Assembly (NCBI GenBank): GCA_009777235.1
Contig: WRMH01000015.1
Coordinates: 1 to 64,000 of the forward strand
DNA from: Oscillospiraceae bacterium
Lineage (GTDB): Bacteria; Bacillota; Clostridia; Oscillospirales; Oscillospiraceae
Reading direction: 5' to 3'
Length of the DNA stretch: 64,000 bases
In this document: positions 52,323 to 55,567 of the stretch, piece by piece
Layout: every line of letters starts with the position of its first letter
Numbering within the stretch: the stretch's first letter is position 1
The notes under the pieces: model-generated
What the model was told of the DNA's origin: nothing
Databases searched by the model: none
Seen by the model: the letters and a program-made list of their open reading frames with translations, nothing else
Program-made: the position numbers and the translations under genes

Positions 52323-52775
52323 ATGAAATGCCCTTTTTGCGGATTTGCCGAAAGTAAAGTAGTAGATTCAAGGCCGGCGGAGGAAGGCGCCACAATACGC
52401 CGCCGCAGGGAATGTCTTAGTTGCCAAAAACGCTTTACCACATATGAAATTATGGAAAGATTGCCGCTTATCGTAGTAAAGAAAGATGGCAGCAGACAAA
52501 CATTCGATAAGCAAAAACTCATCAACGGTATGCTCAGAGCCTGTGAAAAACGCCCCGTGCCTCTCATTGAGCTTACCACGGTTGCGGACGAAATCGAACA
52601 AGACCTCCAAAACTCATTAGAGCGTGAAATAAAAACCACAGGTATCGGAGAGATGATAATGGGCAAATTAAAAGCCCTTGACGAAGTCGCGTATGTCAGA
52701 TTTGCCTCGGTTTACCGCCAATTCCGTGACATCAACTCTTTTATGGATGAACTAAACAGACTGCTAAAAGATTAG
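52323..52775 (+). CDS. nrdR: Transcriptional regulator NrdR
   Basis: The 150-residue protein represses ribonucleotide reductase genes in response to ATP/dATP. The zinc ribbon is [15 protein letters not shown]...[16 protein letters not shown] (residues 3-42), and the ATP-cone follows from about 49 ([21 protein letters not shown]...). The length is standard. The gene opens a four-gene unit with three V-ATPase-like stalk genes, the first starting about 11 bases after its stop. Confidence 0.96.
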
Positions 52776-52786
52776 GGGTGATTAGC

Positions 52787-53104
52787 TTGTCGGCTGATGC
52801 AATAAAGCGTATTCTTGCCGCTGAGTATGAGGGCAATCAAGTAAAGATTATCGTTCATGATAGATCAAAAGAATCTATCGCCGCTGTACACGCTGAGTGT
52901 GAAAAAAATGCAGCGGACGTACTTAGCAGGGCGAAAACCGAAATCGAGCAACTAAAGCACGCGACCGACCGCAAAGCGATGGATGCGGCTGCCGACCTTG
53001 CTTCCACAACGGAAAACCGCCTTGCCGCCATGAGCGCCCGCGCTGAGAAACGCCTTGATATGGTTGCCGAACGTATTTACGAAAGGATCGTGAACATCGA
53101 ATGA
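52787..53104 (+). CDS. V-type ATPase subunit G/H-like coiled-coil protein
   Basis: The 105-residue protein is almost entirely coiled coil, Ala/Glu/Lys-rich (AECEKNAADVLSRAKTEIEQLKHA), ending AERIYERIVNIE. It resembles bacterial and archaeal V/A-type ATPase subunit G (AtpH/NtpF type), which pairs with subunit E as peripheral stalk. AGGGGTGA lies 5 bases before TTG 52787, favouring it over an in-frame GTG at 52778 that overlaps the site. The stop overlaps the next start (ATGA). Coiled coils match easily, so the call rests mostly on the neighbours. Confidence 0.6.
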   Translation: MSADAIKRILAAEYEGNQVKIIVHDRSKESIAAVHAECEKNAADVLSRAKTEIEQLKHATDRKAMDAAADLASTTENRLAAMSARAEKRLDMVAERIYERIVNIE

Positions 53105-53532
53105 GTCAAATGAAAAAGCTCACACTCGCAGCTTCGCACACGGATATCGTAAATATCATAAGCGAACTGATTTTGCTTGAATGTCTTGAGCCGACCGAAC
53201 CTATTATTGAGCTTGACCCGCCGGAGCTTACAAGCCTGCTGCGGCGCGAGGTCATGGAGCTTTCCGATTATGGCGCGAACTATGAGAGCATTGTAGTCTT
53301 TGCCACCCAATACACCTATATACTCTCGGGCTGGCTGCCCGTTGAATATGAATCCGAGCTTACCACCATGCTCGGAACCCATATATGCGCGTGGGACATA
53401 ATAGACCCATACCCATACGACTATGACGATATACCCGTGCTGCTCAAGTTTCCGCAGCTTTTTACAAAGATGAGAAGCGGCGGCCGAAGAGTGTTCGAGC
53501 CCTTATCAAAAGCAAACGGCCCATCATATTGA
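53101..53532 (+). CDS. Miniature V-type ATPase subunit I-like protein without membrane domain
   Basis: The 143-residue protein resembles only the cytoplasmic part of subunit I (AtpI/NtpI, normally about 600-680 residues). Its start MKKLTLAASHTDIVNIISELILLECLEP matches the N-terminal strand-helix that begins MxKlxL. The later TYILSGWLPVEYESELTTML and DIPVLLKFPQLFTKM match the GWVP and (V)PVLLKNPK segments. The intervening coiled coil of roughly 150 residues is missing, as are all seven or so membrane helices that form the ion half-channel. The gene is intact, in frame, and coupled to the G-like gene by a 4-base overlap. Confidence 0.6.
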   Translation: MSQMKKLTLAASHTDIVNIISELILLECLEPTEPIIELDPPELTSLLRREVMELSDYGANYESIVVFATQYTYILSGWLPVEYESELTTMLGTHICAWDIIDPYPYDYDDIPVLLKFPQLFTKMRSGGRRVFEPLSKANGPSY

Positions 53533-53541
53533 GTCAAATTA

Positions 53542-53624
53542 TAAACCGCTTATCATTTCACAGGCGAGAGACGGTAAGCATACGCGCTCATAATTATTTG
53601 TGTCGCCTGTGAAATGGCGGTTTA
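53542..53624. repeat. Inverted repeat between the I-like and E-like genes
   Basis: TAAACCGC and ATTTCACAGGCGA (53542-53567) pair with TCGCCTGTGAAAT and GCGGTTTA (53603-53624), with a small bulge. The loop is 35 bases. It occupies the place where the proteolipid (K/c) subunit gene lies in complete V-ATPase operons, and its right arm covers the leader of the E-like gene, so it may limit that gene's translation. The region between the arms codes nothing visible. Confidence 0.65.
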
Positions 53625-53626
53625 AT

Positions 53627-54043
53627 ATGCAAAATCTCGACAAAATACTTTTACACATCAAAACCGAATCCGAAAACGAATGTAAGGCTATCGCAATGAA
53701 GGCCAATAATGATTGCCGCCGGCTCCGCTCGGAGTATTCCAAAAAAGAGCAAGATGATTATTGGAATTATGTAAACACCGGAACGAAAGAAATTGATAAG
53801 CGGGCAGGAGAACTCGCGGCTCTTGCAGCCGAAGAAGCAAAAAAGAAGGTTTACGCTGTGCAGCAATACATGATTGACAGAGTCTTGGCGCTGGCCGCGA
53901 GAAAGCTGTCGGCATTGCCGACCCGCGCATACAACGACATCCTCGAAAAGTTCAAGATAGAGCCGGGTCTAAAGCCGGAGTTTCTGGTGGAACATTTTAG
54001 GGAAGACCTCACCCCCAGCGTCACAAGAGCACTATTTGACTAA
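53627..54043 (+). CDS. Shortened V-type ATPase subunit E-like protein
   Basis: The 138-residue protein begins with a long charged helix (MQNLDKILLHIKTESENEC, then KAIAMKANNDCRRLRSEYSKK), as in subunit E of V/A-type ATPases (normally about 190-200 residues). It ends LTPSVTRALFD, like the conserved RPEIA.LLF ending. About 50 residues of the globular C-terminal domain between these parts are missing. The start codon ATG 53627 has only a weak ribosome site (GGCGG); an in-frame GTG at 53600 lies inside the inverted repeat. A strong terminator follows, and no subunits C, F, A, B or D are downstream. Confidence 0.6.
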   Translation: MQNLDKILLHIKTESENECKAIAMKANNDCRRLRSEYSKKEQDDYWNYVNTGTKEIDKRAGELAALAAEEAKKKVYAVQQYMIDRVLALAARKLSALPTRAYNDILEKFKIEPGLKPEFLVEHFREDLTPSVTRALFD

Positions 54044-54067
54044 TCCCCTATCAAAGCGCACTACGAT

Positions 54068-54103
54068 AATCCGGTATGCCCAAAAGACATACCGGATTTT
54101 TCA
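54068..54103 (+). terminator. Terminator of the nrdR operon
   Basis: AATCCGGTATG pairs with CATACCGGATT around nine bases, followed by TTTTC. It lies 24 bases after the E-like stop, ending the unit before the convergent foldase gene. Confidence 0.85.
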
Positions 54104-54135
54104 ATGCCCGACGCCCTGTGTGAAAGGCCGTTTGC

Positions 54136-55320
54136 CTATCTCTTATTTACCAGAAAGAACGCAAAATGACGGATAGGCATACCGGTAGCGTCCGTTATAT
54201 CCCGCACCCACGCGCTATGACTGTCGCTTCGCAATATATTGTCTACATATTCCCGATAGTCCCCGTTATCACGCGATACAAAAAGCAAGATTGCCGAGCC
54301 GCTGCTCACCTCTATAACGGTAGTATCTCCTGCTCTCCGCTCCGGCGCCGTCAACCATTCTGCAAAATCAGCACTCAGGCTGCTGCCTCTCCAATCCTCT
54401 ACAAGAGTGGAATCAGGCTCTGCAAATCTCTCTTCATCGTAGCTTTGCGCAGCCGAAATAAAATCATCTTCATTGCTGATTGTTTCTTCAAGCCCCAGCG
54501 CCTCGTCATGAGCGTCTGATTTGGCCTGCTCTATGGCGGCTTCCATATCCTCTACATCGTCATCAGGCGTTTGGTAGGCGACGGTAAATGTTCTATAGCT
54601 GAAAAGATCAATGCTGTCCGCGTTTTCTTCGTAATACTCATCAATTTGCGCATCGGTATACTCAAAATTGCTGCGGGTATATTCGCTATATAGCTCGGCT
54701 AACGCGACAAACTCGAGAATATTTTTATACACCCTCATATTGATATTGTCGCCAAATCCTAAATAAAACTGTAAAAAAGCATCCGCGGAAATATTCTCGT
54801 TTTTTGCCTCCTCACGGATAGCTTCAAACTCGGCGTCAAGAGCCGCATAATCCTCGTCGGTGAGCGCGAAATCATTTTCTTTCGCCTCATTATATAAGCC
54901 GGTAATGCGCCGCATACTTGTGTAAGTAGTCTCGGTAAATATGTCATCCCATGTTATATCGCGCATCTCCCCCGTTTCTTCGTCAACAAAAACATCTACC
55001 ACCTGACTGCTAAAAGGCCGATTTAAATCAGGCGTCGGATAACCAATCTGTGAATAGAAGTTGACGTATTCAATGAGCTGAGAGTTAAAGAAATATTCAT
55101 ACTCGGCCGCTGAAAAATCAACTCCGTCTATTGATACGACGGGCAGCGTCCGTTGCAGCCATCCTGAATTAGCTATCAAGGCGGTCAAAAAAAGCAGCAA
55201 AAACACCGATGTTATCCATATGGAAATTGATCTTACTTTCTTTTTTGCCCTTTCTTCTTTTTGCGCCCGCTCCTGCTTACGTTTTGACTTGTCTGTCTTT
55301 GAATCAAACATTCCGCTCAT
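54136..55320 (-). CDS. Membrane-anchored SurA/PrsA-like foldase
   Basis: The 394-residue protein has a charged cytoplasmic N-terminus (TDKSKRKQERAQKEERAKKK), one membrane helix (about 33-55) and an extracellular helical domain like SurA_N/trigger-factor chaperones (FSAAEYEYFFNSQLIEYVNFYSQIG, YTDAQIDEYYEEN). The C-terminal part (EDDFISAAQSYDEERFA...EWLTAPERRAGDTTVIEVSSGSAILLFV) resembles a parvulin domain in outline, but it is irregular and I cannot point to its active-site residues. A role in folding exported proteins is inferred. The DNA upstream carries the 6S RNA gene in the same direction. Confidence 0.75.
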   Translation of the reverse strand: MSGMFDSKTDKSKRKQERAQKEERAKKKVRSISIWITSVFLLLFLTALIANSGWLQRTLPVVSIDGVDFSAAEYEYFFNSQLIEYVNFYSQIGYPTPDLNRPFSSQVVDVFVDEETGEMRDITWDDIFTETTYTSMRRITGLYNEAKENDFALTDEDYAALDAEFEAIREEAKNENISADAFLQFYLGFGDNINMRVYKNILEFVALAELYSEYTRSNFEYTDAQIDEYYEENADSIDLFSYRTFTVAYQTPDDDVEDMEAAIEQAKSDAHDEALGLEETISNEDDFISAAQSYDEERFAEPDSTLVEDWRGSSLSADFAEWLTAPERRAGDTTVIEVSSGSAILLFVSRDNGDYREYVDNILRSDSHSAWVRDITDATGMPIRHFAFFLVNKR

Positions 55321-55365: not shown

Positions 55366-55567
55366 TGTTTCCCCGCTTTTGCCGTGTAAGCCAATTTATA
55401 ACCTGCACCAGAGGGCAGGTGGGTCGCCTCCTTCCTGTTTCTCTGCTTCCAACTTCCAAACCATGACCGGCATGATTCGGGAGGCCTGCAATTCACAGGG
55501 AGAGTAGGGCATCCCTTATAAGAAATGTGGGTTTAAAAAGACCTATCACGAACAAAGCAGGGAACAT
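55366..55567 (-). ncRNA. ssrS: 6S RNA
   Basis: The minus strand folds as 6S RNA, the RNA polymerase regulator. The 5' end TTCCCTGCTTTGTTCGTG pairs with the 3' end CACGGCAAAAGCGGGGAA in a closing stem of about 18 positions with two mismatches and two wobbles. Between them are the conserved-looking GGCGACCCACCT on the 3' side and a long, interrupted central stem. The length of about 200 nucleotides is normal. No ORF crosses it. The alternative, SRP RNA, was considered because of GGAAGCAG at about 55443, but its domain IV motif is not intact. The boundaries are estimated from the stem. Confidence 0.72.

Follow-up and report, generated by a model that had tools for sequence, protein, structure and literature searches.

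What becomes of the peripheral stalk of a rotary ATPase when the motor has gone? The question is raised by three small genes that follow nrdR in the window analysed here, a stretch of 64,000 nucleotides (G000:C15:1-64000; contig WRMH01000015.1) from the genome of an Oscillospiraceae bacterium, a 2.63 Mb draft in 58 contigs that is 92% complete. An earlier note, made from the sequence alone, had described three intact genes resembling V-ATPase subunits. All three open reading frames (ORFs) exist and are open, and the genes encode trimmed forms of the V/A-ATPase subunits I and E and, probably, of subunit G; they are referred to below as mini G, mini I and mini E. There is a strong case that what remains of the three subunits stays open, together and under purifying selection. 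The genes and the segments of mini I (in the residue numbering of the full subunit I of G003, a relative with an intact operon) are as follows:

52787..53104, plus strand: mini G, a stalk helix resembling V-ATPase subunit G; the ORF is open from GTG 52778
53101..53532, plus strand: mini I, a soluble remnant of V-ATPase subunit I, 143 amino acids (aa), without membrane domain
53101..53295, plus strand: mini I segment 1, from the N-terminus of full I, residues ~1-66; assigned by alignment, with a piece on 8wci that is colinear and insignificant alone
53296..53451, plus strand: mini I segment 2, from residues ~281-332 of full I; assigned by alignment and profile matches
53452..53532, plus strand: mini I segment 3, from the C-terminal tail of full I, residues ~615-641; assigned by alignment, with low confidence in the single-chain model
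53627..54043, plus strand: mini E, a V-ATPase subunit E from which one internal block of ~61 residues is deleted; the junction lies near 53953/53954

Alignment with relatives places the likely starts of mini G and mini E at TTG 52787 and ATG 53627; the mini E frame is also open from GTG 53600. Profile searches bear out the family assignments of E, above the Pfam cut-off, and of I, through the matches of the relatives' mini proteins; for G, such matches point the same way less firmly. Taken alone, mini E scores 29.0-29.3 bits against vATP-synt_E (PF01991; cut-off 24.2), a family matched by 13 of 14 mini E proteins at E <= 0.01, and the profile-profile match to subunit E reaches 2e-36 (13 of the 14 rows used by the program). 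The deletion is one clean block of ~61 residues in the C-terminal part, occupies the same columns in all 14 copies, and leaves none with a complete C-terminal domain of subunit E.

Mini I of the window, taken alone, matches no Pfam family up to E 10 and matches NCBIfam subunit I weakly, at E 0.007. One NCBIfam subunit I model is matched by 8 of the 14 mini I proteins at E <= 0.01 (best 5.9e-5), and a profile built from the 14 proteins aligns with E. hirae subunit I (3.5e-5) as three colinear pieces and, along 52 columns, with five full-length relatives (4e-22). Nearly no residues align to the membrane part of full I apart from the C-terminal tail, and the proximal-lobe fold that marks the soluble domain of subunit I is present. 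A Foldseek search of the PDB with the mini I model returned nothing at E <= 0.001, and a first scan of genome contigs with mini I gave no match; mini I was matched in 28 of 60 relatives searched. The earlier claim that I and E both keep their ends and lose their middles has to be corrected: in I, the N-terminus, residues ~281-332 and residues ~615-641 are kept, and in E a single block is lost.

Mini G of the window alone has no convincing family match. Pfam V-ATPase_G (PF03179) is matched by 7 of the 14 mini G proteins at E <= 0.1 (best 1.9e-5), the mini G profile matches a solved G at 1.8e-3, and the gene stands where G stands in intact operons. The periodicity of 96-98 degrees that goes with right-handed stalk coils is preserved in mini E and mini G: the hydrophobic peak lies at 96.2 degrees per residue in mini E and 97.0 in mini G (0 and 4 of 500 shuffles as strong), beside 95.8 in full E and 98.0 in full G, and all four are weak at 103, the heptad value. 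Anti-phage defence was considered as a role and rejected, as the PADLOC matches are weak only and were taken for coiled-coil noise (mini G to GajB, 7.5e-4, and to DndD, 9.3e-3; mini E to PbeC, 4.5e-3; mini I none).

The motor itself is missing. In the genome that carries the window, neither full subunit I (PF01496) nor rotor D (PF01813) has a match, and a V-type A query finds three matches only, at 28-32% identity, which are F-type and FliI. The three ATP-synt_ab matches of this genome lie in an F-type operon, in which Pfam recognises a, c, b, delta, alpha, gamma and beta (a 164-aa frame at the place of epsilon was not scanned), and in a flagellar operon with FliG, FliH and a FliI-type ATPase, again by Pfam. 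As to a complete ATPase elsewhere in the genome, which the earlier note had asked about, there is an F-type operon, and of the V-type neither A, nor D, nor full I is found. The loss of channel and head stated in that note holds at the mini loci, from which A, B, D, C, F and K are all missing, and genome-wide for A, D and full I, K, C and F not having been searched for across the genome. Completion of a V-ATPase from elsewhere in this genome is rejected within the same scope, that is, by the I, D, A and ATP-synt_ab searches. The mini-operon is thus built of V-ATPase stalk subunits and fails as a V-ATPase: the A and B head, rotor D and membrane half-channel of I expected of a functional enzyme are not there. 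Two F-type-like alpha/beta sets, with one alpha-like frame of 577-595 aa, occur in several of G001, G002, G005-G011, G013 and G014; the genome of the window has one set.

The arrangement extends across the genus. Among its 19 genomes, including the one studied, 14 carry the mini-operon (the genome of the window, G001, G002, G004-G011, G015, G016 and G018), two a full V-ATPase (G003 on one contig, G014 on two) and two an intermediate state (G012, G017); in the remaining one, G013 (64% complete), no V-ATPase or mini-operon was found. Nine of the 14 mini genomes are at least 90% complete by listed figures, and V-type A or D is matched in none of the nine. Rotor D (PF01813) is matched in four of the 19 (G003, G014, G017 and G001), only the last of which has a mini-operon. 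In G001 (88% complete, 7% contamination), a divergent V operon lies on another contig (I 25% identical; L141, L142), and there is a D fragment; this may be a second system or contamination. The intact order in a relative is G-I-K-E-C-F-A-B-D. Judged from sequence and gene order, the three genes are probably the remnant of a V/A-type ATPase operon whose motor was removed in place.

Further afield, 273 of 400 genomes drawn from the family match the mini I profile, and frames of mini length (145-174 aa) all belong to this genus among the matches listed. At E <= 1e-20, only the genome of the window matched among 394 genomes of the order and 391 of the class; these draws evidently held no other mini-operon genome. 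Other short I frames end at contig edges in G365 (184 aa) and G158 (447 aa) and lie at one in G163 (356 aa). In G246 (421 aa; L147), I is split over two overlapping frames in an otherwise intact-looking V operon. The eight mini loci recovered with names all come from metagenome-assembled genomes of Oscillospiraceae, and three of their four sample codes, Emb289, Co191 and Lab288, occur in an excerpt of PMC7024585, on 589 higher-termite-gut genomes.

The frames are open in all 14 mini copies, without a stop in any; ~51 stops would be expected per neutral substitution per site over the 398 codons. The ratio of nonsynonymous to synonymous substitution rates (dN/dS, by NG86) between G008 and G009 is 0.027 for G, 0.088 for I and 0.029 for E (dS 0.7-1.6), and between G005 and G011 it is 0.100, 0.077 and 0.068 (dS 1.1-2.6). 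For rpoB the values are 0.035 and 0.037 in the same two pairs, and for the prsA-like neighbour 0.140 in G005-G011. The other seven mini pairs tried all have dS values over 1.5 or infinite, so one pair carries most of the estimate. A tree of the columns shared by 20 genomes groups the mini genes in a single clade (support 99/99); the rpoB tree neither resolves nor rejects a single mini clade (approximately unbiased test, p 0.455). Taken in aggregate, 14 open copies, a common E deletion, low dN/dS (0.03-0.09 and 0.07-0.10) and a single clade argue for the retained stalk-like set that the earlier note had favoured over recent decay, a reading rejected in view of the open frames, the E deletion and dN/dS. 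Neither a lack of family matches nor frameshifts without selection, both looked for, was found.

The intermediates G017 and G012, together with G027 of another genus (INTERMEDIATES), bear on how the motor was removed. In G017 (85% complete; L049/L143), G, an I of 357 aa, K, E, C and A are present, with B and a reduced D on another contig. Its I consists of the soluble part and C-terminal tail, without membrane domain; no F lies between C and A; and its K is without a glutamate that all three intact K proteins used for comparison share, which we take to be the ion-binding residue. G012 (96% complete; L050) has G, an I of 350 aa, E, A (568) and B (412); K, C, F and D are absent from the locus, and D is also without a match in the G012 genome. 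The membrane domain of subunit I is missing in both intermediates, and rotor D in G012 besides. In both, A keeps GxFGSGKT and CGER. Constraint is more relaxed than in the minis, with dN/dS between G012 and G017 of 0.12-0.24 for G, I, E, A and B compared with 0.024 for rpoB. Every candidate was scored in the V-type A search, and neither genome has an F-type or FliI-like match; with a V-ATPase head and no membrane subunit, these are possibly cells without a working rotary ATPase. In another genus, G027 (L053) has G, E and an I of 341 aa that lacks the membrane domain, besides A and B that are shortened but open, with CGER of A changed to CGAR. As its genus mate G151 has a full operon, the reduction in G027 is most simply independent.

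We infer that the full, intermediate and mini states lie on one ordered path. The sequence of events that these loci favour, by a little, is that the channel of the pump went first (as in G017), the rotor next (G012) and the head last (the 14 species), the stalk never being lost, while a second genus (G027) went part-way independently. A stator would then have been exapted without its motor and given a new, selected function.

What might that function be? According to the excerpt of a review (PMC6131620), the coils of the stalk are right-handed and carry hendecad and quindecad motifs, and subunit a/I by itself makes up the collar holding the stalks of A-ATPases. Together with the coil periodicity, this description makes a soluble rod of E and G, supported by an I lobe, the most likely product of the operon, and its reuse as an ATPase-independent scaffold is, from the sequences, probable. 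Mini E and mini G would still form the rigid right-handed E:G rod, and the I remnant would correspond to the proximal lobe on which E:G rods stand in the parent enzyme. The deletions fit this proposal, since the parts facing lost subunits are gone and the parts facing each other are kept. The trio would thus be a soluble complex, neither ATPase nor ion channel, acting as a passive scaffold or tether, and the free end of the rod, trimmed where the catalytic head would meet it, would hold a different partner.

By their design, E and G are akin to F-type b and FliH. The stalk might accordingly work with a different rotary or export ATPase of the cell, either the F-type synthase or flagellar FliI, for which it would be a regulator, a stator or an adaptor like FliH. 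F-type-like matches do occur in all 14 mini genomes, and both intermediates, which keep a V-type head, are without an F-type match; however, the F-type operon of the window's genome has its own b and delta, and mini E has lost the part with which it would face a catalytic head. FliI-like matches (by length and matched range) are present in 12 of the 14, but G004 (98% complete) has the mini-operon without one, which rules out FliI as a required partner. The genome of the window has its own FliH, a family absent from those listed for mini E and mini G, which match the V-ATPase E and G families. In the fetched stretches, as judged from ORFs and a small reference set, the trio is not seen linked to atp or fli genes. 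Service to either ATPase is therefore unlikely.

It is quite unlikely that there is no complex at all, with one or two of the proteins filling a single-protein role (for example, as a coiled-coil spacer) and the others hitchhiking. The structural models are of single chains only, and mini I evolves faster than G and E between G008 and G009 (0.088 compared with 0.03), as such a reading would allow; yet all three genes are constrained and adjacent in 14 of 14 mini-operons despite differing surroundings, and G overlaps I in 12 of the 14 by the ORF ends listed. That the operon is simply decaying, its in-frame deletions having survived by chance, is very unlikely: the deletions are large and apparently stepwise, the intermediates are less constrained, and G017 K and G027 A have lost the conserved glutamate and the E of CGER, but the 14 open mini-operons with a common E deletion, the low dN/dS of one unsaturated pair and of the next, and the absence of the expected stops weigh against it.

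The scaffold proposal can be placed against known systems. The closest is the V/A-type ATPase peripheral stalk, in which E:G heterodimers are anchored on the soluble N-terminal part of I/a. The mini trio shares with it homologous subunits, the order G-I-E, the right-handed coil periodicity and the proximal-lobe fold, and differs in that the locus has no A, B, D, C, F, K or membrane domain, that mini E is short of ~61 residues of its C-terminal part and that mini I is short of the middle of the soluble part. FliH-FliI resembles the trio in having a stalk-like coiled coil beside an ATPase; it differs in that the window's genome has a FliH and a FliI apart from the trio, and G004 keeps the trio without a FliI-like match. 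The nearest parallel, as far as the excerpts of PMC3369863 and PMC11864180 describe them, is with the mycoplasma F1-like ATPases (Type 2/3 clusters; the gliding G1-ATPase of Mycoplasma mobile), in which rotary-ATPase parts are split from the ion pump and reused. These keep a catalytic alpha/beta/gamma head, whereas the mini-operon keeps only stator parts and no ATPase. In the ProAD survey (PMC11738941), many genomes likewise yield incomplete subunit sets, with ABDIK treated as essential; its excerpt deals with absent genes and not with a stalk remnant that selection has kept. Searches of an open-access library aimed at reduced, partial or reused bacterial V-ATPases found nothing that describes such a unit.

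The features around the trio are:

52323..52775, plus strand: nrdR (TIGR00244, E 6e-62), the upstream neighbour, given as context and no constant part of the trio
53542..53624, plus strand: long hairpin between mini I and mini E in this genome (-37.1 kcal/mol, z -5.2; none of 200 shuffles folds as well)
54068..54102, plus strand: terminator-like hairpin and T run after mini E (54044-54110: -17.7 kcal/mol, z -4.5)

The proposal that nrdR heads the operon as part of a functional unit is not sustained. It adjoins G in three of the 14 mini-operons (the window, G008 and G009), is separated from it or outside the fetched stretch in ten, and in G015 the contig begins too soon. An opposite-strand gene of ~290-330 aa lies between nrdR and G in G002, G006 and G010, and in G001 with one further gene; nrdR is ~1.3 kb away in G018, on the other strand in G005 and G007, and not found in the fetched stretches of G004, G011 and G016. 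As a functional partner it is therefore rejected as not general. Since nrdR also lies 740 nucleotides upstream of the intact G003 operon, the neighbourhood is inherited. G, I and E are adjacent in all 14 mini-operons, also where the surroundings differ (in G016, transporter-like and oxidoreductase-like genes, named by eye), and the constant element is the trio alone. The opposite-strand gene, with an RRFGDR-like motif near its start, is conserved upstream of G in several relatives (L034, L035, L037, L041, L042, L045); in the window, nrdR and G do not have it between them.

Within the trio, the ATGA overlap of mini G and mini I reported earlier is real, and the gap between I and E ranges from -89 to +83 nucleotides by ORF ends across the 14 mini-operons. 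The strong terminator claimed after mini E is matched by a terminator-like hairpin that folds better than all 200 shuffles and is unlisted by a simple consensus scan. The I-E spacer hairpin has ~30 pairs and adjoins the mini E start, and a pattern taken from one of its arms has a single occurrence in the window. This hairpin may control how much E is made relative to I, or it may be an inserted repeat. Downstream, the prsA-like neighbour (54136-55320, minus strand) is 394 aa long, compared with 518-536 aa in the mini relatives where found, and a 6S RNA lies at 55366-55566 on the minus strand (78 bits, over the Rfam gathering score).

Peripheral stalks are regarded as passive and as pointless without a motor. 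If selection keeps a stalk whose motor is lost, that stalk would be useful alone, and its trimmed proteins would show which part is sufficient. It also follows that matches to V-ATPase subunit families can arise in genomes without such an enzyme, and the intermediates are a rare record of a rotary machine being dismantled. In this group of Oscillospiraceae, several of them known from termite guts, the loss of the pump's engine and the keeping of three trimmed stalk genes suggest a new job for the stalk.
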